Of a stretch of 64,000 bases of DNA, positions 11,374-60,700 are shown piece by piece; the stretch's first letter is position 1; each line of letters begins with the position of its first letter. The stretch is from assembly GCF_902686445.1 (NCBI RefSeq), contig NC_062226.1:11566001-11630000 (forward strand), given 5' to 3'. The position numbers were made by a program, and so were the translations under genes. The notes beneath the pieces were generated by a model. That model searched no databases. It was not told the DNA's origin and saw only the letters and a list, made by a program, of their open reading frames with translations. Origin of the DNA: Sciurus carolinensis. Lineage: Eukaryota; Chordata; Mammalia; Rodentia; Sciuridae.

Positions 11374-14300
11374 GGTGCTGGGGTCTGAACCCAGGGCCTT
11401 GAGCATGTTAGTCAAGTGCTTTTTACTCCAGCCCTGTTTTCTACCATTTTTTTGTTTGTTTGTTTGTTTGTTACCTGGTATTGAACCCCGGGGCACTTAA
11501 CCACTGAGCCATATCCCCAGCCCTTTTTTATATTTTATTTAGAGACACAGGCTTTCTGAGTTGCTTAGGGCTTTGCTAAGTTTCTGAGGCTGGCTTTGAA
11601 TTCACAATCCTGCCTTGGCCTCCCCAGCTGCTGAGATTACAGGTGTGTGCCACTACTCCTGACCTGTTTTCTAAATTTTAGTATATAATTATACATAGAA
11701 ATAAACATGTGTTAGACTAATCTACCATGCTAGACTTAAAGGCAGTTTATATACTTTTTTGCTTATATTCTAGCATTAAAAGGGACTTTTCTAGTTTAAG
11801 GAAAAATCCTCTTAAATCTGGTTGGGATGCAATATGTTGAATTCCTCCATAATAACAAGATCATTTTCTTGAGTCACCGCATATTAAAGCTTTATCAAGT
11901 TTGTCTTCTTTAAGGGGGACAAAAAAGTCATGATAAGATGATTTGGAGCTGGTTACTTGGTACTCAACCCAGAAAATTCTTTTTTGTATAAAATAAGGTA
12001 AAAGGCTTGAGTATTTTGCATTGGTTTAATGAGTAATTTCATTCATTCAACAGATACTGAGTACCTACTGTGTGTCAGGAATTATTTTATCTGTCCAACA
12101 AATGTTTAATGTTTCTTAGGAACTGTTCTAGGTGCTAGGGATATGAGGGTTAACAAAACAGACAAAAAATTATCTAAAATTACATTTCAGCAAATCTAAG
12201 CCTTAATAGAGAACAACTCTTTCTTACTTTGTTTTTTTTTTTTTTTTGTCCCAGAGAATTCTGCTGGTGAACTCTTGTTTTACTTGGGAACCCTTTAAAC
12301 AGGATTTTTTTTTTTTTTTTTTTTTCCAGTAGGAAAAAAATCTTTGTTTCAAGAGGGATAAAAGGGACTGATGAGTCACCATGTTACCTAGGATTTGTTT
12401 TCATTTCTTTATTCCCTCACCAGAATATGAGATGTTACTATAATCTTGTGAATTAACAGTATAAGGTAATAGTGAAAATATTTGCCTTATTTGTCACTGA
12501 AAATATCTGAAATGTTTTCTTTTTTATTTTATTTTTTAGTTGTAGATGGACACAATACCTTTATTTTATTTATTTATTTTTGTGTTATGCTGAGGATCGA
12601 ACCCAGTACCTCATACGTGCTAGGAAAGTGCTCTACCACTGAGCCACAACCCTAGCCTTCTGAAGTATTTTCTGATAATAGCTTCACTGTTTATGAAAAA
12701 TTTCTACTGAGGAAGACAACAATCATAATAGTGATTTATACTCTGCCCTTGTTATATTTTCTCTCCAGTAAAATTGGTTCTCCACCCAAGACTCCTGTAA
12801 GTAACATAACTGCTACCTCAGCTGGGCCCTCTAATGTTGGAACAGAACTGAATTCTGTGCCTCCAAAATCCAGCCCATTTCTCACTAGAGTACCAGTATA
12901 CCCTCAGCATTCTGAAAACATTCAGTATTTTCAAGATCCAAGGACTCAGATACCCTTTGAAGTCCCACAGTACCCACAAACAGGTAAGTAATTTTAGGTA
13001 ATTCTAAGAAAAAAAGAAACTCATCTAATGTTTGTTATAAATAAATGAGTCAATATTTATGTTTATCAAGAATGTCTGTATTAAAAAATTAATCCCTTTG
13101 ACTCATAAGTTTTCTTCCTGCTGTAAAAATCTGTGATTCTAGATGCCAGTATATAGTTTTTCATCAGCATATGCATTGTGAATACACAGGAAGAGACTCT
13201 GATAGGTAACTGTTTTAGTCAGCTTTTTCACCGCTGACTAAATGATCCGACCAGCACAATTGTAGAGGAGGAAGGGTTTATTTGTGGGCTTACAATTTCA
13301 GAGGTCTTGGTATATAGAAGGCCAGCTCCATTCCTCAGGGCTGAGGGTAAGGCTGAACATCATGGTGGAAGAGGGTGGTGGAGGGAAGTAGCTTATAGTG
13401 ATCAGAAAGCAGAGAGAAAGAGAGAGAGTCTACACTCTTCAGATACAAAATATATGCCCCACAGCCACACCCCAATTCCAGTTTCCTCCATCCGTACCCT
13501 GCCACTTCAATTAATCCCATCAGGGATTAATTTGCTGATGGGTTAAGACTCTTACAACCCAATCATTTATCCTCTGAATCTTCCTGCATTGTCTCACATG
13601 TTAGCTTTTGGGGGATACTTCACACCCAAACCATAACATTCTGCCCCTTGCCCCCAAAAGCTCACACTCATATGACAATGCAAAATATATTTAGTCCATT
13701 TTCAAGAGTCCCTATAGTCTCAATAGTTCTGAGATTGCTCAAAGTTCAAGTCCACAGTCTTCTCTCAGGCAATCTCGCATTGTGAGCTCCTGTAAAATTA
13801 AAAGCAATTTAAAAATATCCAACATATTGTAAACTGAGTAAATATATTGTACTGAGTAAACATTTCCATTTATAAAAATAGGGGCATAGAAAGAAGGGAT
13901 AGGACCAAAGCAAGACCAAAATCCAACAGGGCAAGAAATCCTGTAGCTGCTTGTCCAGCACCTGGGGCACACAATATCTTGATATTCTCTCCAAATGGCA
14001 TGTATAGCTCCGTCCCTGTGGCCTTGTTCATTGCAGCTCAAGTGCCTTTCTGTTGGTTTGTCTCTGCTCGTTTCCTGCAGCTTTCCTAGGACTATGTCCC
14101 ACATTACTTTCATTTCTTAATCTCTGGGGTTTCCACTGTAACTTCAGCCTCCTCACATCTCCACACTTTGACTTCTTAGGGGGTGCCCACAGGGACTCCA
14201 ACCCTGCTGCACTTTGCCTGGCCTCCCAGGCCTTCCTTTGAAGTCTTGGTGGAAACCTCCATGATCCCCTAACTCTAGCATCCTGCATTCCTGCAGAACC

Positions 14301-23200: not shown

Positions 23201-24667
23201 CCCTGGATGAAGGCCGTCACCTTACCTTAAATCTTCTAAGCAAGGAGATTGAACTGAGAAATGGAGAGGTAAAGAAACTGTACCTCTTAGCTTCATGCTG
23301 TTTGCTTCTCCTGCTGCTCATTGGCTTATACCATTACTTAATGCATTTTAGTGTTCCTTTTTCTAGTGGACTATTGATTACATTTAAAACTTATGTAAAA
23401 ATGAGATTCTAGTCCTAGATATCCTGACTCATTCTTTAGTTAAATTATTTTAATTTAATTTAAAGGGAGACCCTGCAGTTAAAAATTAGTATTTTTCTTA
23501 TTTACAGAGTGATTATACTGAAGATGCAGCAGATACTAAGCCTGATAGAGATATTGAGTTAGAGCTTTCAGCACTTGATACTGATGAACCTGATGGACAA
23601 AGTGAACAAATTGAAGTAAGTGCCAGTTACTTAGAAGGCTTTGTTCCATTGGAAATTGAAAAGCCTAAGAAACTTTGATTCCAAAGGATTAACACTTTGT
23701 TTTCCTAGGAAATCCTGGACATGCAACTTGGTATCAGTTCTCAAAATGATCAGTTGCTGAATGGAACTACAGTGGAAAATGGGCATCCAGTCCAACAGCA
23801 CCAGAAGGAGCCACTAAAGCAGAAGAGACAGAGTTTAGGTGAAGATCATGTGATTCTGTGAGTGTTAGACAGAAAATTCATAAACAGTGGGCACAGGGCA
23901 TGAATATAAAGAGAAGTAGCTACTGTATTAGTTTCATTTTTGCTTTATGAGAGAACTTTATATAATAGGGCAGTGATTCGATCAGTCTGGATTTTTAGGG
24001 AGAAAGGTAAATTTGGACTAACAAAGTGGTCCATTGTAGTAACATGAAACTTACTTTTTTTTTTGGCATAAAAGTTAGTTTGTGTGCCAGCATTAGGTTT
24101 GACCATACTTCTAAGCTACAGACTGGAGAATTAAAACTTAGATGAAGCGTTTCTTGTTTTTAAAATCATGTTAAGATTTTATTTGATACCATATTGCCAT
24201 TTTGTATAATTTCTGCCCCAAATATTGGCTTAATCTTGAATATAACAGTTTGTATGGCTCTATACTAACCAATATTTTAATTTTTTATTGTAATTTTTGG
24301 AAAATGGAACTTTTTTATTGACTTCTGGTACTTTTTATTGATAAGAAGACATTTTTTTTTTCCTGGGGACTCTTGAAAGTTCAATTCAACTTTCATTAAG
24401 CCTGTATGGTTATTCTTAAAATTTTTTCACTTAAAGCTAATTTGTTTTCATTGTCATTTATTTTCTCTCAGGGAGGAGCAAAAAACAATTCTGCCGGTAA
24501 CTTCTTGCTTTAACCAGCCACTTCCAGTGTCTATTAGCAATGCAAGTTGCCTCCCCATCACCACATCTGTCAGTGTTGGCAACCTCATTCTGAAAACTCA
24601 TGTTATGTCCGAAGATAAAAACGACTTTTTAAAACCTGTTGCAAATGGGAAGATGGTTAACAGCTGA
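7741..24667 (+). CDS. RC3H2: RC3H2 (Roquin-2), C-terminal 12 coding exons, partial gene
   Basis: Roquin-2 binds stem-loop decay elements in mRNA 3' UTRs and recruits deadenylation and decay machinery in the cytoplasm, including P-bodies and stress granules. Twelve exons (7741-8049, 12769-12983, 18206-18639, 19211-19378, 21538-21684, 22019-22232, 22470-22554, 22954-23035, 23134-23268, 23508-23615, 23709-23857, 24472-24667) have AG acceptors and GT donors, and their phases match at every junction, giving one open frame of about 746 codons ending in TGA. Mammalian RC3H2 is about 1190 residues, so the first visible residue is near 446, just after the CCCH finger. The RING, ROQ and CCCH domains are therefore outside the window. 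The visible part has a Ser/Thr-rich stretch, a proline-rich region (PPPPQQYGPVPPVPSG) and a Gln/Leu-rich, coiled-coil-like region near the C-terminus. I recognise the family from long stretches of sequence specific to Roquin-2. No disabling change was seen, so the gene looks functional. Confidence 0.95.
8130..8290 (+). mobile_element. MIR SINE relic
   Basis: gtacaattgagtagctctgt, then aagtcacttcaactctgag, follows the MIR core pattern (tight losses, no tail). Confidence 0.6.
8470..8790 (+). mobile_element. MIR relic interrupted by an ID SINE
   Basis: MIR-like text (ttaatttgtcttccttagtt, tttgtaaaattagaatacc) resumes after 8675 (gtggtaatgagaattaggtg). A degenerate ID (8596-8672, + strand) ends in a short CA run. 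Confidence 0.6.
8868..9118 (+). mobile_element. degenerate B1-dID followed by an ID SINE
   Basis: B1 half from 8868 (caggtacagtggtgcacccc), ID remnant near 8985, and a second ID at 9042-9118 (agttgctcagtggtagagta, caatccccagtactgc). Confidence 0.75.
9790..10145 (+). mobile_element. L1 LINE 3' UTR fragment
   Basis: gaatggaatatcataccgcc, aagtgaaataagtcagatat and agattagtggtggcttgggc are typical of old L1 3' ends in sense orientation. Confidence 0.7.
10196..10252 (-). mobile_element. ID SINE fragment
   Basis: cataatctaccactgagcta followed by tatcccctat is a reversed ID A-box end. The flanking AT microsatellite covers 10260-10285. Confidence 0.6.
10535..10780 (-). mobile_element. 214-bp retroposon with 16-bp target-site duplication
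   Basis: AAGGATAACTAATTCT occurs at 10535-10550 and 10765-10780, exactly flanking 10551-10764. The insert starts with a short T run (an A tail on the minus strand), contains atacatgacagtagaatgca and ends in a C/T-rich stretch. It is probably a 5'-truncated L1 3' end of a squirrel L1 family or a small non-LTR element. The flanking repeats are certain; the family is not. Confidence 0.7.
11341..11436 (-). mobile_element. ID SINE
   Basis: Long T run, then gcggtgctggggtctgaacc and cagggccttgagcatg; reversed ID body. Confidence 0.88.
11443..11668 (-). mobile_element. B1-dID SINE
   Basis: (GTTT)n tail, reversed ID half (gtattgaaccccggggcact, gagccatatccccagccc), reversed B1 half ending gtgtgtgccactactcctga. 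Confidence 0.9.
12035..12175 (+). mobile_element. L2-like relic
   Basis: attcattcaacagatactga, gtacctactgtgtgtcagg and gttctaggtgctagggatat are classic L2-type 3' phrases. Confidence 0.6.
12522..12660 (-). mobile_element. ID SINE of the long-tail type
   Basis: The 3' tail (seen first in +) is ttagttgtagatggacacaa plus (ATTT)n, then the reversed ID body (gaggatcgaacccagtacct, ctctaccactgagccacaac). The same tail recurs at 21168, 22717, 30106, 33130, 50335 and 54350. Confidence 0.85.
12769..12983 (+). CDS. RC3H2: RC3H2 coding exon
   Basis: The acceptor is tctctccag and the donor gtaagt. The exon enters with one base completing a codon and leaves in phase 1 (G). It encodes KIGSPPKTP at the start and a Pro/Ser-rich linker ending PQYPQT. 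Confidence 0.94.
13211..13638 (-). repeat. MaLR 3' LTR
   Basis: Begins tgttttagtcagctttttca and ends ccataaca on the + strand. Its partner is at 15133. Direct comparison shows shared blocks such as gaggtctt, ccacttca and cttttgggggata. Confidence 0.8.
15133..15547 (-). repeat. MaLR 5' LTR
   Basis: Begins tgttttagctttttcactgc. Its right end is imprecise (atcataac), and a possible 5-bp target duplication (gtaac/ctaac) is too short to trust. Confidence 0.75.
15638..15795 (+). mobile_element. B1-dID SINE, internally deleted
   Basis: aggtgcatgcctgtaatcag, then cagcctcagcaacttagcaa, then the ID half (ggagtggctcagtggtagag). The middle of the B1 half is missing. Confidence 0.8.
16911..17252. mobile_element. 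316-bp insert inside L1 with a 13-bp target-site duplication
   Basis: aatagccattctc at 16911-16923 and again at 17240-17252 bounds 16924-17239. The insert begins with five T and ends in a (CA)n tract (17212-17239). Its body is not a SINE; parts look like old L2. It is probably a retrotransposed stretch of ordinary sequence. Confidence 0.65.
17212..17239. repeat. (CA)n microsatellite
   Basis: Pure CA dinucleotide run at the right end of the insert. Confidence 0.95.
18206..18639 (+). CDS. RC3H2: RC3H2 coding exon, proline-rich
   Basis: The acceptor is ttttcaag and the donor gtaagt. The first two bases complete a Gly codon and the exon ends in phase 0. This is the most proline-rich part (YYPPPPTVPAG, then PPPPQQYGPVPPVPSG), followed by an Arg/Tyr-rich stretch with RRIWRPPMYQRDD. 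In the family the C-terminal region, rather than the ROQ core, contacts the deadenylase complex; assigning that role to this exon is inference. Confidence 0.95.
18676..18860 (+). mobile_element. MIR SINE relic
   Basis: ggagtcaaaccacccagatg, cttgacttacagaagttact, ctccctgtgcctcaattttt and ctcataaggctattgtgaga match the MIR layout. It starts about 35 bp after an RC3H2 donor site. Confidence 0.85.
19211..19378 (+). CDS. RC3H2: RC3H2 coding exon
   Basis: The acceptor is ccccacttag and the donor gtaaga. It is a phase 0 exon of 56 codons starting EPCGHLKTSCEEQIRRKPDQ and ending VDFRTD. Confidence 0.94.
19640..19806 (-). mobile_element. ID SINE remnants
   Basis: (GTTT)n followed by a reversed ID body (aatcaaacccaaagccttat, cttaccactgaggtgtacac), and beyond it a short + strand ID end (caaggccctggttttgacct). 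Confidence 0.65.
19812..20015 (+). mobile_element. L2/MIR3-like relic
   Basis: aacacctacttgttccaggc, ttaattctcacaaaaaact and the flank of gcaggtattatccttatttt. Confidence 0.55.
20550..20772 (+). mobile_element. B1-dID SINE
   Basis: atggcacatccctataatcc to the A-rich tail; ID half ggatgtggctcagtggttaa and aatccccagtacc. 20280-20460 before it looks like an old LINE of unknown family. Confidence 0.92.
21168..21296 (+). mobile_element. ID SINE of the long-tail type
   Basis: tatagctcattgatagagca, actgggttcagttctcagca, then the characteristic tail aaagtccattgataactaaa and A/T sequence. Confidence 0.88.
21538..21684 (+). CDS. RC3H2: RC3H2 coding exon
   Basis: The acceptor is ccaatcag and the donor gtatga. 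It has 49 codons, symmetrical phase 0, including the stretch DHLSHYSPWSCGTIGSCINA. Being phase 0-0 it could be skipped without a frameshift. Confidence 0.93.
22019..22232 (+). CDS. RC3H2: RC3H2 coding exon
   Basis: The acceptor is tttatgcag and the donor gtaatt. It enters in phase 0 and leaves in phase 1. It encodes DLDSGDVKRRVHLFETQRR and then an acidic/Lys stretch followed by WGAISRSSRTGYHTTDPV. Confidence 0.94.
22470..22554 (+). CDS. RC3H2: RC3H2 coding exon (short)
   Basis: The acceptor is tttctatag and the donor gtaaca. It has 85 bases; the first two complete an Asp codon and the last two (CG) are completed by G in the next exon to give Arg. It encodes YVPYVNAVDSRWSSYGNEA. Confidence 0.93.
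22717..22828 (-). mobile_element. ID SINE of the long-tail type
   Basis: Tail ttgatggaccttttatttta, then reversed ID (gaggatcaaacctagagcct, gagccacaactccagcccc). Confidence 0.9.
22954..23035 (+). CDS. RC3H2: RC3H2 coding exon (short)
   Basis: The acceptor is ctttaaag and the donor gtaggc. It encodes DRFIVTDLSGHRKHSSTGD and ends in phase 0 after LQQ, where the Gln/Leu-rich segment starts. Confidence 0.93.
23134..23268 (+). CDS. RC3H2: RC3H2 coding exon, coiled-coil-like
   Basis: The acceptor is tctcatgtag and the donor gtaaag. It has 45 codons, phase 0-0. Regularly spaced Leu, Glu, Lys and Gln (AKSNSLLLQREANALAMQQK, later LLSKEIELRNGE) suggest an amphipathic helix. The preceding intron is only 98 bases. 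Confidence 0.93.
23508..23615 (+). CDS. RC3H2: RC3H2 coding exon, acidic
   Basis: The acceptor is tatttacag and the donor gtaagt. It has 36 codons, phase 0-0, strongly acidic (SDYTEDAADTKPDRDIELE). Confidence 0.92.
23709..23857 (+). CDS. RC3H2: RC3H2 coding exon
   Basis: The acceptor is ttttcctag and the donor gtgagt. It starts EILDMQLGISSQNDQLLNG and ends with two bases (CT) that the last exon completes to Leu. An in-frame TGA overlaps the donor, so reading through this site would truncate the protein. Confidence 0.92.
23858..24471 (+). other. last RC3H2 intron, no recognisable element
   Basis: 614 bases of AT-rich sequence without SINE, LINE or conserved motif that I can see. Confidence 0.6.
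24472..24667 (+). CDS. RC3H2: RC3H2 last coding exon with stop codon
   Basis: The acceptor is ttttctctcag. After one base completing Leu there are 64 codons and TGA (24665-24667). The C-terminus reads KNDFLKPVANGKMVNS, which I recognise as the end of mammalian Roquin-2. The 3' UTR continues in the same exon. Confidence 0.95.
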
Positions 24668-26082
24668 AAGGAGGTTCATCTTTCAAATTTGTGACCACAC
24701 CATGGAAGCATTTACACTAGCTTTTTATATATATAATATATATTATATAATGTATATTTTTTTTAAAAAAAAGATATTACTGGGGGCATCCATTTCCTGT
24801 GGACTCTTTGATACTTCAAGCCCTCTTGCATTATTAGCATTATGAAAAAAAAAAAAAGAAAATTTACTTTACTAGGGTAATACGTTCACTTTCCAGAAGT
24901 GATTGGAATTTGGACAACATTTAACTTAAGCTTCAAGCAGCTTTTTATGAGTTTGTAGCAATCCGGTGCAGTAACTGAGCCATTTCCTATTTTAAATGGC
25001 TTCTATAGAAAATTAACAACTCAGTTATTAAACTAGCAGGATCCTACAATGATACATCTAGTGAAAGTAGACTTAATTAACTTATTTATTTCTATTTTAT
25101 GTTTCACTGAGAGAAATTTCCATCTCATTCCAGCTGCTTTATTTATCTTTTTCATGGGACTTTGCATGAATTTTTTTCCTTTTTTTTTTTTTTTTTTTTT
25201 TTTTTTCCCTTTTTTTAATTTTGAAGAGTGGAGTTAGACGTTCTTACCATAGAATTTTACAGGGTTATATACTAGCTTTCTTTACTGCATTATATGTAGG
25301 AGTGTGGTGCAGTGCTTTTATCTGTAGCATTTAATTTTTTTTGATTTTCCATTTTTCAAGAATAGTTTCTGCTTTATTAATATTTACACACAGGCTACTT
25401 GTTGAAGTAATTAATTAAAAATATAACCAAGTGCCTAAGTCTTTCAGCTGATGTACTAGATATTAAATTCTCCTAAGTTATGCAGAATCGTTTTTACAAT
25501 TTTGATAAATTATGCACTAATGTAATGGCAGTTTTTTAAAATGCAGATTTAAGCCTGTACATTATTGAATCTGATGACTTGGCAAAAGAATCAGGTGCTT
25601 TCAGCTTTCTTGAGAAAACCCTGTATGTAGTGTTTGCACTGACTAACAAGATGGTATTGCTGGGTTTAATTTAAAATAATTAATTTGGATGTTCATTGCA
25701 TTATCTTGGTTAAATATTGTTTATTGTTACTTCATGTTGGGGTTTTAATTTTCCTTGTTTTCTGTTAGGTTGATAAGACTATGAACCATGTAATAGTAGA
25801 ACATTGGCTAACATTTACCCATACTTAAAAACATGAATAATATCTGCCCTGCCATAATGTGACTGAAATTGTTTTGATTTGGCATCTGAAAGTATGCAGT
25901 ATGTTCAACCAGTCGTGCCTCAGATTTGTGGGAGGTATTTTATTGAAACCTAAATTTCAGTCAACATTTGAAAACAAAAGCTGGGCATTCCTTCCTGGTG
26001 ATCTTGCCTATAGTTTGTCTTTTTGTTTTTCCTCCATTTCTTTAAGATTAGTTTGACTTTTATTATTATTTTTTTTTTAATT

Positions 26083-26097
26083 AACTTCTGTGAAGTT
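26083..26097 (+). promoter_or_regulatory. constitutive decay element (Roquin-binding hairpin) in the RC3H2 3' UTR
   Basis: AACTTC-TGT-GAAGTT is a perfect 6-bp stem closing a TGT triloop, extended by a possible T-G pair (26082, 26098). The core TTC-TGT-GAA is the one described for the TNF constitutive decay element, the structure the Roquin ROQ domain recognises (pyrimidine-purine-N triloop). Its position in the Roquin-2 mRNA suggests feedback on its own or RC3H1-controlled expression. The structure is read directly; the function is inferred. Confidence 0.6.
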
Positions 26098-28698
26098 GTT
26101 TACTCTGAAAATTGTACTGGAATATTTTAAGCCAAGCTGATCTTTCACCAGGTGTACTGTATGTAAGGGCTTTTCCTGCTAGCAAGATGCTTAAACAGGA
26201 TCATGTTATTGGTCGTCTGAGCTATTTAGTTATTTTACAAAACCACAGCATTGTATCAGATAAGATTTTGATAAAAGTTTTGTGCACATTTCCAGGGGCG
26301 GGAGGGTTGACATTTCCCTGAAATTTCTTGATCAGAATGAGTAAATACTGGTGTTTGATACCTGTCTTAATGAACATGCTCATAAGGTGACTGATAAGTT
26401 GTAAATATACCTGAGAAACAAAGGGGTAGTTTTGATATTCTGGTGTCAGTATGGAAGATCTTACACATTTATTTAATACTCAAATGTATGAAGATGTTTG
26501 TAGCATAACAGCACAGTAGCCTTGACTTAATTTCCTTTGTTTAGTACTGTACCTTTTTGCCATGGCCAGTGCTCCCCATCCCTACAAAGACATTTTATTT
26601 ATTTCACTCTGTAATCTGAAATGAATAGGAACAAGAGTTTTAAACCATGTTACATTAACTTATTTCTGACATTATAAATTAGCCTAGGATATTACAGGAA
26701 CATGATTGTTATATAATTTATATCAGAACCTTTCTATAAATATGTGCTTATTACATTTTAAATGCTTCCAATGTACTTTATTTGCTGTTTGTAATTCCAA
26801 AAAGGATATGCAAACCAGTCTGTCTATTTCATGGATATTTAATAGTGAGATCTTCCATGTTGAAGGTAATGTATTTTTTTTTAAGATTTTAAAATTGCTA
26901 TTTTGTTACAAAATAGAGACCTATTAACAGTTCGAGAGCTCCTTATGTGCCCTCAGGGAAAGAACCCTCTGTGCAACAGAACTACACAAAACATCTTCAG
27001 CACGTTCTGAGGGTGAATATATACTACATAAATTGATCTTGTGTATTTAACCTTATCTTTTTAATTTTAAAATTGAAATTTTAAAACTTGGTTGTGCTCT
27101 GCTGGAGGGGGTTGGGATAAACTGCTTAGGTGTTTGCCTACTTGTCCAGTAAATTACATTTGCATCAGTGTATGTATATACCTGCCACCTTACTGGTATG
27201 TCTCAGAACATTTATATTAAAATAATGCTTGTCTTGCAGCAGGTGATCCCATAAAACATAACTCCCTATTCTTAAAATGTTACTCTCTCACTAACAACAT
27301 AGGAATTGTTTCTGTGTTGTGATTATTCTGCATTGCATCTTTCTGTATGGTGGCCACCTTTTGCCTTTCATGGTGGATTTTAATGTGAGTAAAGCCATTG
27401 GTTCTTTACCACTTTAGAAGAAAACAGCTCATCTGATCTTTCTTCAAAATGGTACCTACTGATGTCATAGAGGAAAATAGTACAATCAGACCTAGAATGT
27501 GACTTTGAGGACCAGGGTCATTTGACCCTTTTACCAACATGTAATGTACACGTATTTAGAATCAAAGACTACAGCGCATCAGGAGAGGAAATTTGTAATG
27601 CTGGTAACTAAACTGTTGCCATTCAGGAAAAAGCAGTCTGAGGTCTGGAAATCAGGAAATTGGTGGTTTCTTTCTTTTTTGTGATTTTCCTTTTTGAATT
27701 TTTAAGTCTCATTCCAAAATCCATGTGCCTCATTTAGATACCATGGATGTAGTATCAGTAATTCTTTTTTCTTTTTTTTTTTTTTTGTGTGGTCTCATTT
27801 CATTTTATGAATTCTGAGAAAGTTATATATGTATTTCTTCCCAGTTGATACCCAAGCAAATCAGATTCCCTTGCCTTTGCTGCAGTGACTTACTTTCAAT
27901 GCCATGTGATGAGCCAGTGTCATATGTAAAGTTGTACATTGTAATTTTCAAGAGAAGGTAGTTCATTAGACCAGTGACACTGATTTTCCCCCTCTGTTGG
28001 CCTTTAATAAGAGAATAGCAAATGAAACCTCACATACTAAAACTGAAATTGTCACCAAGATTTCAAATCGGTGTTAAGTATATAAATCACATTCCAATTT
28101 TACCTACTGCCTTGAGAAAATTATAAAAATGCACAGCAGTTCATAGGAATTTTAAATTGGATCATTTAAATGTTTGAAAAAAATATTCTAAGAACCATCT
28201 ACCTTGCTTTTGCATTTGGATGTTAAAGCCCATGTTGTCTTCTTAGCAGGGGTGGAATTTGTAACAGATTCAGTAAGTGATTTAAATTTTGAATCTGAAT
28301 ATTTCTTCCCTAGCTTCTTTGAGTCATTTTCTGAGCAGGCTGTCACCAGTATTGGTAACTGATCATTAAAGGGAAAAGTTGGATTGCAACTGTGTATTAG
28401 TTTCCTGGAAGAACTTCCTTTGTGTTTTAGTGAATGAAGAATGTTGATGGGATCACTTACTGTAACTCCTACATAAGGACCCCTTCTGCAAGCAGAACAC
28501 AAATGAACATGCTCATGGAGTATTCCATTTTCTGGATAAATAAGTTTGCTAGTAACTCCTTTATACTAGCAGTTTCTTTGTATCCCTTTGCTGGCAAGGG
28601 AATATAAGGAGTCGAGACCACAGATTAGAACACCCCACATTTGAGATGAGACATATGTTTACTCCAAGAGCAGTTATTCCCCCAAGTCCGAAACTAGC

Positions 28699-28700
<2 letters not shown>

Positions 28701-28734
<34 letters not shown>
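28701..28734. repeat. (TG)n microsatellite in the RC3H2 3' UTR
   Basis: A tgtg run followed after some bases by T-rich (GTTTT)n sequence at 28754-28775. Confidence 0.95.
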
Positions 28735-29737
28735 GTGTTTGGGTTTTTTTCTTTTGTTTTGTTTTGTTTTGTTTTTAACATAAAATTTTAAAAATATCCC
28801 CAAACCAGTGGAAAACAGACACTGGCTGCACTTAGTACTGCCAAAAGCCAAGGTCATTTGCACATATTCCATCAACCTGTCAAGAATTAGGCCTCATTTT
28901 ATAACCCAAGGCATGGAAGTGCATGCATTCTCTTAGCTGGGCAAACAATTATACTGTAGTTGTGATACAACACATGTGGCTTTTATTTGTACTGCACATA
29001 TCCACTGTACAGCCACTTGGGAGTATCGTGGTTAGCTTGCAGCAACTGCTGTCTGCATTTATACTGTTTATTGCATATTCTTTTCCCTGGAAGTGAAAGA
29101 GAAATGTTTTTCTTGTTGCATTGATTACACTTTATAAATTTGCTTAGCCGGAAAGTTTGGGAAAAGAGGCCTGTTTGTCAATTGTACAACCGATTGTGAA
29201 GCTCTAGTGTGAATATTTTTACGTCTGTATTAGACATTTTCTTTGCAAATCTATTGTTCGATTGAAATGTAAATGAAATTAAAGATGGTGTACACCCATC
29301 ATGTAAAAAGCAGGCACCATCTCTAAGATGGATTTAATGCTCATTTTTAAGGCATATACTCAGCTTCTATTTAAAACTATAATTTAAAATAATTCTGTAC
29401 AATGAAATGGGGAATATATATGGGAATAAATTCTATTCCATTTATTTCAATTTGAATTTCCAAATTGTATTGTTTCCCTTTGTGCTATAGGAATAGGATT
29501 AAATGGGGGAAGGCTAGGATTTATAAGGCCTGTATATGGGGGGAGGGCAGAGATGGAACAATGAGGGTTGTGATGATAGTGAATAGCAAAGAGTGAATTC
29601 TGTGTGTTTTGCTGTAGCACTGAAGTGAAGAGATAATTAGCTTTGGCTGTTCACAAAATAGAGCATCATGATTTTCAGTGTTTGAGAGAAATTTGATGGA
29701 AAAGTTTGCAGTACTTGACATGTATTTGCATGCACAA

Positions 29738-29743
29738 AATAAA
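29738..29743 (+). terminator. RC3H2: RC3H2 distal poly(A) signal
   Basis: AATAAA followed 20-60 bases later by GT-rich sequence (gttgtttagtgtc, gtttgtggtgt), the usual downstream element. A weaker AATAAA at 29424 and ATTAAA at 29279 could be alternative sites. Confidence 0.7.
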
Positions 29744-29881
29744 ATTATTTGTCCACCTTAAAAGTTGTTTAGTGTCAATGTTAAGTTTGTGGTGTATTTT
29801 AATTGTCTCGATTTTCTTGGTTTTTTGGCTTAACAAAGCTACCAGAACACTCCTTAAGTGGCGATTTAAATGGTCACCTGC

Positions 29882-30105: not shown

Positions 30106-30221
30106 TAATGTTGATAGACCTTTATTTTATTCATTTATTTATATGTGATGTTGAGAATCAAATCCAGTGCCTCATGCATGCTAGGCAAGTGCTCTACCAC
30201 TGAACCACAGCCCAGCCCTAA
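30106..30221 (-). mobile_element. ID SINE of the long-tail type
   Basis: Tail gttgatagacctttatttta, then reversed ID (agaatcaaatccagtgcctc, ccactgaaccacagcccagc). 30222-30940 shows nothing recognisable. Confidence 0.9.
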
Positions 30222-36385: not shown

Positions 36386-36504
36386 AAATACTGTGTGGGG
36401 CTGGGGATGTAGCTCAGTTGGTAGAGTGCTTGCCTTGCATGCACAAGGCCCTGGGTTCAATCCCCAGCACCACAAAAAAATTAAATTAAATTAAAAATAC
36501 TGTG
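36386..36504 (+). mobile_element. ID SINE close to consensus, with target duplication
   Basis: AAATACTGTG at 36386-36395 and 36495-36504. The body ggggatgtagctcagttggt and aatccccagcaccac is almost unmutated, so it is a young copy. Confidence 0.9.
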
Positions 36505-37893: not shown

Positions 37894-38633
37894 TCAAATC
37901 ATTGATTCATTAGTAGTGCATAGGTGATTGTAGTGAGTGTGCAACCCCATTAGCTTAACAGACTGGATTCTATCTCTAACATATTTAGGCGAACAGTTTA
38001 TCATGTATGGCCCGATTGAAAGTCTCAACATAACTAGAATGAGAGGTCCCACCATTGTGGTTATTAGAGTAGTTAACAAGGGGGACCAAGAGAACAGATT
38101 TTGATACCAATTTTTCTCAGGTTTTTAGCTTTTTTTTTTTTTTACCTTTTTGAGCCTTTTTTTAAAATCAAAGATAAACTATCATGAATGACACCTGAGA
38201 GGTTAGTATAGAAACAATAGGTCTCTCCTAAGGCCACACATAATTTTTTTATTTTAAAAATAACAAATTTGATCCTCTTTTGCTTTGTAAAACTACCTCA
38301 GCAGTTGAATCAAGGGAATTTTTTAAGTGACTTACAGAGTTTTCTAACTCACTTAAGTTCAAATCTATTTGTCTACTCAAAGTTTTGAAATTCTGGTTTC
38401 CAGTAATCAGGGCAGTGGTTCCTACAGCTGTGGAGCCCATTATACCTATTTTCACTAGGAGGGGAACTAAGACAGGGGCCACTTGTTTAGATATTAGCCC
38501 CATATGTTCCTTTCATCCCTCCCCATCATAATAATATACAGAATTTAGCCCTTTTGGCAGTCAAAAAGTTGAACAGTTAAGCACAGAGTTATTTCTGATG
38601 TAGTCCAAGCAAGAGAAAAAACACGATTAACAT
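37894..38633 (-). pseudogene. provirus env remnant: leader start and transmembrane subunit, surface subunit missing
   Basis: A leader-like start (38633, hydrophobic, stop after 14 codons) is followed within about 150 bases by the transmembrane part: a small-residue/hydrophobic fusion-peptide-like stretch and heptad-like helix (38249-38503), then the membrane anchor and cytoplasmic tail remnant (37894-38079). The surface subunit, usually over 1 kb, is absent. Stops and frameshifts separate the parts. Old virus copy, non-functional. Confidence 0.65.
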
Positions 38634-41959: not shown

Positions 41960-44400
41960 ATCTCAATCTTTAAGTTTTGATCTTAAACATCCAGCAAGTC
42001 AGTTTCATGAGTTGTACAGTAAGAGTACTGGGTTTTAACTTTTATGTCTATGACTTTATAGTTATTTACCAACTTTTATTAAACTGGGGTCTATATTATC
42101 TGTCCTATAAGTGAAGGCTTATTATCTCAAATTAATTTAGATTGTTCTTGAAGCAGTACCTCTGTAAAACATTAATCAGTCAACAGTTACAGAGTTTACA
42201 AGGAAAATACAAAATGGAATTAACAACAGTAAAAACATATTTAGTTGTGTAATAGCTATTTTAAATTTTGATTGAGCTATGTATTATATCCCCTGCAGTA
42301 ATTTTACAACAAAAAACCAATCTTTTGAATATAATTTTAAGTGAACTGAAGTCTGACTTATTTTGGAGCCATTGTAACATGTAGTAAGGTAGGTAGCAGA
42401 GCTTTATCTCAGGTAAGGTGGGGCTCTTCATAAATCTTAGGTAAAGCAGTCCTAGTTCTGAAGCTGACATTTATCTTTTTATATATTACTTTATAAAGTT
42501 TACATGTATTTTTCCCAAGTCTATTCAAATGTTAGTTAACACAGTATGATATTACATCTAAAACATGAACCAAAGAAAGCTGAGAGAGCTTTTAACTTTC
42601 CTTTTGTGTAGTAAAGTGGCAAAATGTTTTCCTGTTTCCTGATATTAACTTTTAAACATATCAGGCTCTTATTATCTTTTAGAAATACATTTACATTTTC
42701 ATCCCAGTGCAGAAGGTAACATAAGGTTCAGGTTCAGTTACAGAACACTAAATGATATAAATAAATCCCTAATAAAATTTCTTATTTTGATAAGTTTAAA
42801 TTTACCATTACAACTTTAGGTTGGAGAACACCAGCTTGATAAAATGTTCTTTTAAACCTTTTAAAGACTTGTATACCTGGAAGATATGAACACATTTAAT
42901 ATATAAATAAGAGTGATAGAATCATAATTACATTGATTTTTTTATATTAACCATGTTCAGCTTTTAAAGAAAATTTAGACTTTGTAATGTGGTACAATAC
43001 TCTAACAGTTGCTGTTTAACCAGAGTTGTATAAACCCCCAATTTTTAAGACTAGTTGCTCTAGAATATAAAACTTAACAGACACAATGTTAAGAGTAAAT
43101 TAATATTTTAAGAATTATTGGTCATTTCAGCATATAGACTGAACTTTGGTTTATATCAGTACATTTTTTTTTTTTTTTTTTTTGCGGTGCTGGGGATCGA
43201 ACCCAGGGCCTTGTGCTTGCAAGGCAAGCACTCTACTGACTGAGCTATCTCCCCAGCCCTAGTACATTAATATTTGATCTTAGGAAAAACCTTGAATAGT
43301 TTTAACTGTTGTGTTACTTACACATATATGTAAACCTTTTAAAATTTACACTTAACATTTTTTAATCACTTAGACACTCTTGTTGTTTACTAAGATGTAT
43401 TACAGTCTTATTTTATTACATAAAGACTTTTTTTTATCTAGAACCATTCTATATTTTTATATTTAAAACCTTATAATGTTTTAATCTATTGATCCCCTTT
43501 TTAAAATTTATATTTTGAAACAACCCTTATGAATTTCTGAATTTAGATAAATTACTTCATTTTAATCCGATGAAATACTTTGTTACTTATAGAACTCTAT
43601 TTAAATACAGTTGAAACTTTTGGACCCTTTATATAGAATAATACCTGCCTGTTAAGACTTTTAGTAATCATGTTTTTGGTGATAACATAAAGTAAATTTA
43701 AACCCTTTTTTAATTTATCAATTTATGAAAACACCAAACATGTTTTAAGTCTGTTATCCTATGGAATTTAAGGAGTTAAGAGTACTTGATGTTATATTTA
43801 ACAGCTAGCATTTTAACTTTTTAAACTAATCAGATGTCTCTAACAAACACATCTGTGATCAACCCCATATATGTTAAATCTAATTTAGTTATTTTTTAAA
43901 AAAATAACAAGGTATCAGAGAATTGTATTAAGCCATATCAGTCATTTCTTTCCTGTTGAAGAAAAACCTAGAAACAATGGATATTAGACATTTTATAAAA
44001 TTAACATTTTATTTATTTTTTGACCACCTGGAAACAAAACTGTGTTAGTAACTTGAAAGCCATATTTTTGTTTACCCAATTTATAAACCTTTTAAATCAT
44101 GTAAATCAAAAGCATTTGGATCCATTTTTTAAAAATTTTAATTTATGAGCTCATATGTCAATTTTGGTACCAAATATATGTAGACATGACAATACACCAG
44201 TGTACATATTCGTAAAATAAACAGATGGACAAAGACCTTATAGCTTATTTTTTAAAACCCATTACATTGAGAGTTAACCCTTGTAAACTGGCCTCTGAAT
44301 GAAACAGAGCATTAAAAAAACTTTATAATTGGATAAAATAGGTCTGATCAAAAATTAACCTAGGCACACCAGATCAAAATTATGAACTTGAAAAAACAGA
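41960..44400. other. AT-rich non-coding interior of the provirus
   Basis: About 2.4 kb, strongly AT-rich, with recurring motifs like taaaccttttaaa and no frame longer than about 70 codons. No gag-pol similarity was seen. An ID SINE lies inside (43166-43260). Confidence 0.6.
43158..43268 (-). mobile_element. ID SINE inside the provirus
   Basis: AGTACATT at 43158-43165 and 43261-43268. T run, then gcggtgctggggatcgaacc and gagctatctccccagccc; close to consensus, young. Confidence 0.9.
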
Positions 44401-55131: not shown

Positions 55132-57300
55132 GTACTGGAAAACCCTTGAGCTCTGGAAACAGGCTCTAAAATGTCTATTAAGTATGTATCACTTAGAATT
55201 TTCCTGATCTCTCTAACTGTAATCCCAATTTTTACCCAGTATTGTTATTCATTGTGTATGTTTTAGTCTTTTTTTTTTTTTTTTTTTTTTTTTTGGCGGT
55301 ACTGGGGATCAAACTCAGTGCGCACTCTACCAGCTGAGCTATCTCCCCAGCCCATGTTTTAGTCTTTTTACTACATAGTGCAAATGTGTATGCATAGTAA
55401 CATGTTAATGAACAAGATTGGCCTGGGTTTGAATCCTGTTTCTCAAATTAACAGCAGTTTGATAGCCATAAATCATAGGTATGAGTATATTGGTAGTATA
55501 AACTCCTTAGAAATGGCATTTTTACTTTTTTTTGTGTGGTGCTGGCTTGAACCCAGGGCCTCTTAAATGTTAGGCAAGCACTCTACCACTTAGCTATGTC
55601 TACAACTCCATTTTTATATTTTAACACTATCAAATTGCTGTCAGTTGAGTTGGCACTAATTTATAGTTTAACCAGCAGTACAGTGTTTCTTCACATGTTT
55701 TTCCTACTGGGTTATCAAACTTTTTGATTTTTGCCATCCTGGTGTATGACAAATAGTCAAATTTTTTTTTTTTTTCATAGAAATGGAATCTTGCTCTGTT
55801 GTCCAGGCTGTCTGTGAACTCCTGGACTCAAGCAATTCTCCTGCCTCAGTTTCCTGAGTAGCTGGGACTATAGGCATGTACTACTGTACCAGGCTTGTCA
55901 TTGTTTTGTAACTTAATATATTTGAAGTATCTTTCATGGCAGGAAATAGAATTGTCTCATTTTTTCTAAGTGTTACTTTATTTTCCTTTGAGTAGATGAA
56001 TCATAATTTCTTTGTTTCCTAATGTTGGATATTATCTTGGCCCTTTATTATAGACTGTTTTGTAGCACACCTCTTTGTGCGTAGACCTCTCTGCCCTGTG
56101 GCACTAGTGCTCTCTAGAAGAAGTACTAAGACCAGTGGACGGATCCTAAGGAGGAGTGCTGTGGAGTAGGTGGAAGTTAGGTGCAGGTCTCTGCTTTGTG
56201 TGTGCTTGCCCAGTTGCAGCCTGTTATTCTGTGTCCAATTGCTTTGCCCTAAACAGAGCATGTGTTCTGTCAATGTTCAGAACATTAGGAAGGTTCCCTG
56301 CCACTGGTCCAACCAGTGCCAAGGGTTCCTTTCTCAAACTGGCATGGTCCATGATAGGCATGGAATTCAGGAAAGGAGGTAGAGTTTTCTTGCCACCATG
56401 CTGCCAGCACATTCCAGGCATGATGGGAAGGCTAGAGATCTGATTTCTCACAAAAAGTGAATGATACATGTCAATGAAAATGAGACCCAAAGGGTAATGA
56501 AGTGAATTAAGATAAGATTGCCTTTCATAAGGCTTCAGTTTCTAAAGGTTAGATTGAGGGGTTTTAAAAATGGCTGTAAAACTCTTACATGCCTCCCATC
56601 AAGGTGTGAAGTTTATGTCTCCTGCCTAGAAACCTGAATAGACTGGTAACTACTTCAAACAATAAAATGTGATGGAGGTAATACGATGTGACCACCAAGG
56701 CTGAGTGATAATAGTCAATGGGGTTTCTGCCTTGCCCACTGGAACCCTTGCAGTGGAGCCACAGTTGCCAAGTTGTATATTCAACTATCCTGAGGCTGCC
56801 ACATTTGGGAGAAGCACAGCTGCATGGAGAGGACTCATCTATGCACTCTAATTGACAGACCTGCTGAGCTCAGTGTGCAAGACATCGCAGCCCAGTTACC
56901 GTATATGCGAATGTGACTCCCACGATTCTAGTCCCCAGCAGTCAAGTGCCCCTCATGCCTTGAGTTTTTTTTTTTGGGGAATGCTGGGAATTGAACCGAG
57001 GGCCTTGTGCTTACAAGGCAAGCACTCTACCGACTGAGCTATCTCCCCAGCCCCTTGAGTTTTTATAGATGAGATATGAGAGAACATGAAGCAGAGGCAA
57101 GCCATCCCCATTAACTAGTTGCTAACACCTCATGCGAAGGGGAAGGATCACACTTTCCGACACAAGGAATCACCCCTGCACTGTGTTTTTCCTGCCTTTT
57201 GGTCATGTTGGAATGAGAAGAAAGGAACTTAAAATCTACAAAGGGGCAAGACACCCCCATTTCCATGGGCATCATCTCCGGGTCCTCTCCTCTCGAGGAG

Positions 57301-57718: not shown

Positions 57719-57749
<31 letters not shown>

Positions 57750-60700
57750 GGGTGCTAGGGATCGAACCCAGGGCCTTATGCTTGCAAGGCAAGCACTCTA
57801 CCAACTGAGCTATCTCCCCAGCCCCCAAGCCTGGAAGTTTTGACATGTGCAGGATTTGATGTTTATCACCGTGGTTTCTGTCCTTTTAAGGGGATCAAGG
57901 TGGGGTCTTGGTTCAGCTTGGCTTGTGTCCTAATAAGGAGATCAGGGCTGGGTCCTTGATTCTGCATGGTGTGTCCTTTATAAGGAGAGCAGCACAAGCT
58001 TTGATCAATGTGACTTGCTTCGTTATAAGATTATCTTCCTTCCTACTTAGTTGATAATTGTAGTGAAACCTTTTAATTCCCTTACCTCTCATTTTGGGTA
58101 TGCTCTACCAGTATTTCTTTGGGGTTCCCATGGGGGTTTCATTTAATGTGAGAAAGAGATGCTACTGTGATGGGAATCTATAGCAACATGACTTCAGTAG
58201 TGTACAGATGTGACTGCTGTACCTCTCCAATCCTTCCCCTTCAGTTACTGATGCTACAGTTTTATATAAGGTATTTATTCAATACTGTAGGATAAAATTG
58301 GGGTGTTTTGGTACATCATTCTCTCATATCTTGTAGAAAACAACAGTAGCACTAGCTTTTATAATTGTCATGAATTGGCTTTACCAGGGATCATTCTGTC
58401 TTCATCAAAATCTGAGTTCCTATCTAATACCCTTGAGTACAACTTGAAGGACTCCCTTCACACAGGGCACATCTTGTGGGGACCAAGTCCCTGGGCTCTT
58501 GTTTATTGGGCACTGCTGTGGTTTGAATGTATGTCCCTCCAAAATTCCTGTTGAAAGTTCAGCCTCGATATAACACTATTGAGACCTGGTTAGGCCAAGA
58601 AGCTCCCACCCCAGGGATGGGATGTACACTTGAAGGGAGCTTCTCCAGCAGGTGCAAAGACCTGGTTCAGTTCTTAGCAGTGTGTGTGCGCGCGCGCGTG
58701 CGCACACACACACACACACACACACACAATACATTTGTGAAGCTGGGTGCAATGATGTATGGCTATGTTTTCATTAGCTTTTTTGTCTCTGTGACCAAAA
58801 AACCCAATGAGAACAACTTGGAGGAGGGAAAGCTTCTCTAGGGCTCACAGTTCTAGAGGTCTCAGTTCATAGATGACTGACTCCATTGCTTTGCCCAAAG
58901 TGAGGTAGTTGGTCATGGGGGAAGGGCAGCAGTGAAACATGGGGGAAGTTCAGGGCAGCAGTGAAACAGTGTAGCTATGATGATGTCTTTCAAAGCCAAA
59001 AAGTTATTACACATTTTCAAATTTGAAATGAAGAGACCTCTGAAGTATTCTACAAATTTTAATTTCTAAACAAGTAAGCATCAGTCTTCATAATCCACTA
59101 AAATAAGAAAACTTCCAGAGTCCTTTCTTATTCTTATTATGAAAGTGGAAAAGGTCCTGGAGGCTCCAAAGTGAGATGATCACTGGGGTTATGTGACTGG
59201 GTATTTCTTGCTCTGACCTCACAGGGAGTCATTGTGAGGGAATTTTAAATAGCAGGTATATAAGAGGATGGCTGAGTTTTTTGTCCATAAGTACAAAACT
59301 CTTGGTGTTGACCTGTGGAATTCCCAGATAGTTCATGTGTTTGGTGGCAGCTGGTGACTGGTGGTTGTGGTCTTTTGGATATTGGTGTTTTGATTTGTTT
59401 TTTTTCTTTTTTTTTCTTTTGTTGTTTGGTTTTTGTTTTGATTGATTGATTGATTTTTTAGCTAGCATACTTGTTCATGTTTGAGAATGAGCAGTGAGAG
59501 TTGTCAGAGCAGTGTAGTGCTGCAGTGGCGGAGCTCCTGCTATGAGCCCTCCTTGACAGACCATTATATGGTCATGCAGTACATTGGGGAAGGGGGCTTC
59601 GCTGAGGTGAAACTTGCCCATCATCTCCTCATCGGGACAGAGGTTGTGGTGAAGGTACCCACGAAAGTAGCTTTGAACTTTCTCTTCCTATCTGAACTGG
59701 ATCTGATGGCAGCCTGAAACCACTAAAATGTGATCCAACTCTTCCAGGTCATCAAGACCATGAAATATATTACTTTAACATGGAGCATGCAGGTGGGGTA
59801 CAGCTATGGGACCTCATCCTGGAAGCTGTTGGCATGCAGGAGGAGAAGGCCTGCAGACTGTTTAGGCAGATTGTGTGTGCTGTGCAGTACTGCCAAGAGA
59901 AGGGTATTGTGCACCTTGACCTGAAGCTGAGAATGTAGTGGTAGATGCCAGCAGCAACACCAAACTCATTGACTTTGGCCTGAGTACCAGATTCACAGCT
60001 GGAAAGAAGCTGAAGAGGTTCTGGGGCACTCTTCTATATATGTTGCCCTTGAAGTTGTCCGTGGGAAGGAATATGAGGGTCCTCCAGTAGACATGTGGAG
60101 CCTGGGTGTCATTTTCTATGTTATGCTCACAAGGAGATGCCCATTTGAGGCAAGCAGCAATAAGCAGGTGAAGAAGTCAATCCTGCAGGGAACATACGAC
60201 ATTTCCCTGCATGTTTCCACGGGAGCACAGAACCTCATCAATGAGATCCTGACGGTGGACCCCATGCAGAGGCCCACCATAGAGCAGGTAATCGGGGCAC
60301 TCATGGCTGAGCCAGGGCAAGGAAGCTGCTTCATCCAGTCCTTGTAGTTAGGCACTCCCCAGACTCCTGGATCCCACAATTATGAAAATCATGATGAACA
60401 TGGGATACCACCCCTATAATACCTGGGTGTTCATGGCAAGTTGAAGATTTGATGATGGCTAAGTACGTCATGCTACAGTGCCAGAGAACCCAGAGGGCAG
60501 GCCCTGCGGATCCTCCCAGGGTCTGCTTCAGGAAGTGTTCCAGTGCACCTGCCATTCCCTTGCCCTGTGAGCAGCAGCAGCCTGAGGAGGCCAAGCAGTC
60601 CTAACACAAGGGTCCTGGAAGTGCCAGCATGCCTGCCGTAGGTTCTGCTTCCTCCATGTGGACACGCCCCATCCAAGCCTAGCCTCCCAGCATGACCCTG

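Follow-up and report, generated by a model that had tools for sequence, protein, structure and literature searches.

Constitutive decay elements (CDEs) were described as hairpins with a stem of 6-8 bp that closes a YRN triloop (PMC6294493), and their core is quoted in the literature as UCYRYGA or as NNNNNUUCYRYGAANNNNN (including PMC4510711). In conserved CDEs the third loop base is preferentially a U, and a Y-R closing pair is favoured if position 2 is a G (PMC6294493). Several such elements were prepared as synthetic RNAs by Zhang et al. (2015; PMC4614863), namely Ier3, Tnf23, Roquin (AUAACUUCUGUGAAGUUGC) and Roquin2 (UUAAUAACUUCUGUGAAGUUGUUUAC), and these CDE RNAs are credited there to Leppek et al. 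(2013). Size-exclusion chromatography revealed complexes of the RNA-binding region of RC3H2 with two of these RNAs, Roquin2 and Roquin, and the Roquin2 complex eluted between those of Ier3 and Tnf23; stem-loop affinities are given in the available text of this paper for Ier3 and Tnf23 only (PMC4614863). Later, Rc3h1/2 appeared among the target sites from which a model of the CDEs reported until then was built (Essig et al., 2018; PMC6145892), and a review of the same year states that cis-elements in Roquin mRNAs serve their negative autoregulation (PMC6079247).

Host gene and 3' UTR of the hairpin

The window, i.e., the whole stretch of 64,000 nt of Sciurus carolinensis DNA that was analysed, contains ten exon pieces on the plus strand upstream of the hairpin. 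These were joined by hand to a query of 651 aa, in which two junctions are out of phase and exons are probably missing. Of 7,990 candidates that were scored in a protein search with these joined translations, 341 matched with E <= 0.001. Among the 120 matches listed the majority carries the name roquin-2; the sources comprise mammals, with marmots and a ground squirrel among them, as well as birds, reptiles and fishes. As the exon translations match roquin-2 of many vertebrates, the host gene of the hairpin is, judged by its coding sequence, RC3H2 (Roquin-2). A search of solved structures with one RC3H2 exon returned no matches, probably because this exon belongs to the C-terminal half of the protein.

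The hairpin is located 1,416 nt downstream of the stop codon of RC3H2. A hexamer scan revealed a second AATAAA at 29425 in addition to the likely distal one at 29738 (Table 1), and both are located downstream of the hairpin, which would place it, as described for CDEs, in the RC3H2 3' UTR if the transcript reaches either of them. Between stop codon and hairpin, ATTAAA hexamers resembling poly(A) signals are present at 25027, 25414 and 25462, and short RC3H2 isoforms ending at these positions would be without the hairpin.

Table 1. Coordinates of RC3H2 features and of putative regulatory elements in the window.
Feature	Position	Strand	Basis or remark
RC3H2 last coding exon, C-terminus ...KPVANGKMVNS	24472..24667	+	Reading frame, roquin-2 matches; acceptor site by eye
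RC3H2 stop codon	24665-24667	+	Reading frame
Long RC3H2 3' UTR, 5,093 nt	24668..29760	+	Stop codon and AATAAA/ATTAAA scan; 3' end inferred from AATAAA at 29738
AU-rich nonamer TTATTTATT	25082..25090	+	Motif scan
27-nt counterpart of published Roquin2 CDE RNA	26077..26103	+	One more U, at 26081/26082
Hairpin with seventh pair, U26082-G26098 wobble	26082..26098	+	17 nt identical to published Roquin oligo
Candidate CDE hairpin AACUUC-UGU-GAAGUU	26083..26097	+	6 Watson-Crick pairs, UGU triloop, C-G closing pair
Pumilio-type octamer TGTAAATA	26400..26407	+	Motif scan
AU-rich nonamer TTATTTAAT	26469..26477	+	Motif scan
AU-rich nonamer TTATTTATT	26595..26603	+	Motif scan
Pumilio-type octamer TGTATATA	27173..27180	+	Motif scan
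AATAAA, likely distal poly(A) signal	29738..29743	+	Hexamer scan

Hairpin, chance expectation and further elements

Positions 26083-26097 read exactly AACTTCTGTGAAGTT, in which six Watson-Crick pairs without any mismatch enclose a TGT triloop. An earlier note on this DNA had claimed such a stem and loop at this place, and the exact bases and the predicted fold agree with it. Formation of the hairpin in its local context is predicted with stem pair probabilities of 0.91-1.00 in folds of at least 27 nt. Local folding of the complete 3' UTR gives 0.91-0.975 and pieces of 61 to 501 nt give 0.97-1.00, while in a fold of the bare 15-mer the outermost pair has a probability of only 0.55. For the 27-nt piece 26079-26105 a folding energy of -4.2 kcal/mol is predicted (z -2.18), and 8 of 200 shuffles fold at least as well.

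The class-I core UUC-YRY-GAA is present as UUC-UGU-GAA at 26086-26094, and the stem of six Watson-Crick pairs and one U-G pair encloses the loop UGU, in line with the 6-8 Watson-Crick pairs and the YRN triloop of CDEs. Traits that are favoured, albeit not required, are found as well: the third loop base is a U, and the loop, with a G at position 2, is closed by a C-G (Y-R) pair. The hairpin is therefore, in its bases and its predicted fold, of the class-I CDE type for all features tested.

A strict class-I CDE, defined as a 6-8 bp Watson-Crick stem with UUC-YRY-GAA, is observed once in the 5,093 nt from 24668 to 29760. Of 1,000 dinucleotide shuffles, 2 contain one or more such elements, a comparison that is post hoc and concerns a single chosen motif in a single gene. 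Looser classes provide weaker evidence: hairpins with a YRU loop are observed once in the 3' UTR and at least once in 16% of the shuffles, and those with a YRN loop three times, with at least three in 2.4% of the shuffles, two of the three observed being AT or poly-T tracts. The bare 9-mer TTCTGTGAA has four copies in the window; as at least four are reached in 7 of 100 shuffles, this is weak evidence.

The AU-rich nonamers and Pumilio-type sites that had been announced before for this 3' UTR of about 5 kb were located, three of the former and two of the latter, by motif patterns that we take to be typical of these elements. Two further Watson-Crick hairpins resembling CDEs, at 24727 and 24758, were rejected as AT or poly-T tracts, and a hexaloop resembling an ADE at 28419-28434 was set aside, its 5-bp stem containing three G-U pairs. 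Within 24668-29760, 15-mers centred on CAC or CAU with at least nine U in the 12 flanking bases were not found. The 3' UTR furthermore contains a (GT)n microsatellite at 28706-28734. None of the six tRNA-type Rfam matches of the window falls into 24668-29760; the nearest is located at 30143-30214 and the others at 36403-36475, 43190-43247, 12583-12650, 56976-57048 and 57749-57818. These are probably tRNA-derived SINEs, presumably of the ID-like kind typical of squirrels and other rodents. An open frame of 87 aa on the minus strand (38249-38512) resembles by eye part of a retroviral envelope transmembrane protein.

Putative autoregulation of RC3H2 and its alternatives

Roquin-2 is an immune regulator, and its own mRNA would bear a hairpin of the type that Roquin proteins bind for mRNA destruction. 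The hairpin very probably represents the reported CDE of the RC3H2 mRNA, through which Roquin binding shortens the life of the mRNA and restrains Roquin levels, and Roquin would in this way probably limit its own production. Mechanistically, either Roquin-1 or Roquin-2 would use its ROQ domain to grip the UGU triloop together with the 5' strand of the stem, the bound Roquin would recruit CCR4-NOT and decapping factors, and this recruitment would result in a shorter life of the RC3H2 mRNA and hold Roquin levels in check. As Roquin function is important for immune tolerance, self-limitation of Roquin mRNAs is of relevance. For the window, this explanation is based on the bases and predicted fold of the hairpin, on the identity of its gene and on its agreement with the published element, and, from the work of others, on the RC3H2 complex formed in vitro; how strongly the RC3H2 mRNA would be affected in cells, and that both paralogues would participate, we infer.

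The Roquin-type decay hairpin proposed in the earlier note is borne out by the class-I CDE traits, by the identity of RC3H2 and by the published Roquin2 CDE RNA, and the feedback loop on RC3H2 proposed with it finds support in kind in the negative autoregulation of Roquin mRNAs stated by the review (PMC6079247). The same note was unsure whether this loop had been described for RC3H2; both the CDE RNA (PMC4614863) and the autoregulation idea (PMC6079247) are already published. The RC3H2 hairpin and the idea of self-regulation are thus not new, and the result is chiefly a confirmation that the animal from which the window originates has the element.

Several observations bear on the strength of such an effect. 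In AC16 cells it was reported that an siRNA against RC3H1 is specific for the Roquin-1 mRNA and that an RC3H2 siRNA hits the Roquin-2 mRNA exclusively, and a rise of RC3H2 goes unmentioned in the available text, which argues against a strong cross-repression in these cells (PMC12651655). For Nfkbid it was shown that several stem-loops must cooperate and that single CDEs can be weak (PMC6145892); the RC3H2 3' UTR contains only one good CDE, which counts against a strong effect of the single element. A G at loop position 2, as in the RC3H2 hairpin, conferred less repression than an A in UCP3 CDEs and equal repression in TNF (PMC6294493), and U-rich motifs were more frequent than the CDE consensus in PAR-CLIP data from human (PMC4510711). 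Half-life data for the RC3H2 mRNA with the hairpin intact or mutated were not found in a literature search that covered few subscription papers, and RC3H1, RC3H2 and Roquin are absent from the main text of a paper that surveyed autogenous binding by CLIP (PMC9508846).

That the hairpin arose by chance in a long AU-rich 3' UTR and is functionless in the cell, despite protein binding in vitro, is highly improbable. The frequency of YRU-loop hairpins in shuffled 3' UTRs and the presence of further 6-bp triloop hairpins elsewhere in the window would fit such an origin, but the strict CDE form is rare in the shuffles, the element is present in the published Roquin2 RNA and, with 17 identical nt, in a separately named Roquin oligo (PMC4614863), and Rc3h1/2 are on the list of reported CDE sites (PMC6145892). 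A different assignment, which we regard as quite unlikely, would be that the hairpin serves mainly Regnase-1, or Regnase-1 and Roquin jointly, rather than Roquin self-feedback. It would be compatible with Roquin binding and draws on a review according to which the sites crosslinked to Regnase-1 are comparable in their sequence determinants to the CDEs of Roquin (PMC8894612), as well as on the autoregulation statement in PMC6079247, which spans Roquin and Regnase mRNAs together. However, the published biochemistry on the Roquin2 CDE RNA was done with RC3H2 protein (PMC4614863), and Regnase-1 and Roquin interact and share targets; their cooperation or separate action was called debated in 2018 (PMC6079247).

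It is likewise unlikely that the level of the RC3H2 mRNA is mostly set by Arpp21 sites, AU-rich nonamers and Pumilio sites with little contribution of the CDE. Arpp21 iCLIP reads were reported in the 3' UTRs of Rc3h1 and Rc3h2, and Arpp21 raises Roquin-1/2 protein in MEFs (PMC10928157), and the nonamers and octamers of Table 1 lie in the same 3' UTR as the hairpin; such elements are, however, compatible with an effect of the CDE. Self-limitation of Roquin through the hairpin may also extend to both genes. The 17 identical nt in the Roquin oligo, presumably from RC3H1, suggest that the element is older than the RC3H1/RC3H2 duplication. Only tentatively, and with some doubt, we consider that the hairpin predates this duplication and forms part of a shared homeostat, in which each protein represses both mRNAs and short RC3H2 mRNAs ending at ATTAAA (25027/25414/25462) escape.

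Comparison with published CDE RNAs

The closest described system is the Roquin2 CDE RNA (PMC4614863), which has the same hairpin and flanks as the window and is one U apart: the stretch 26077-26103 equals the Roquin2 oligo plus one U, with a longest unbroken match of 22 nt. In the text of the paper the oligo is called 27-nt, while 26 nt are shown in print; the counterpart in the window has 27 nt. Exact-pattern scans of genome_contigs and viral_contigs for vertebrate relatives present as contaminants gave no matches in either set.

The Roquin CDE RNA (PMC4614863), which by the name of the oligo presumably derives from the mRNA of the paralogue RC3H1, shares 17 nt with the window (UAACUUCUGUGAAGUUG), comprising the whole stem, the loop and the seventh U-G pair, and the window differs from it by one base at each end. 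In the TNF CDE, represented by the Tnf23 oligo, the core UUC-UGU-GAA is identical to that of the window, as had been claimed before, whereas the outer stem pairs are different (PMC4614863). The IER3 CDE, which was crystallised with RC3H2, also has the identical core UUC-UGU-GAA; however, it contains five Watson-Crick pairs in comparison to six in the hairpin of the window, and its outer pairs differ (PMC4614863).
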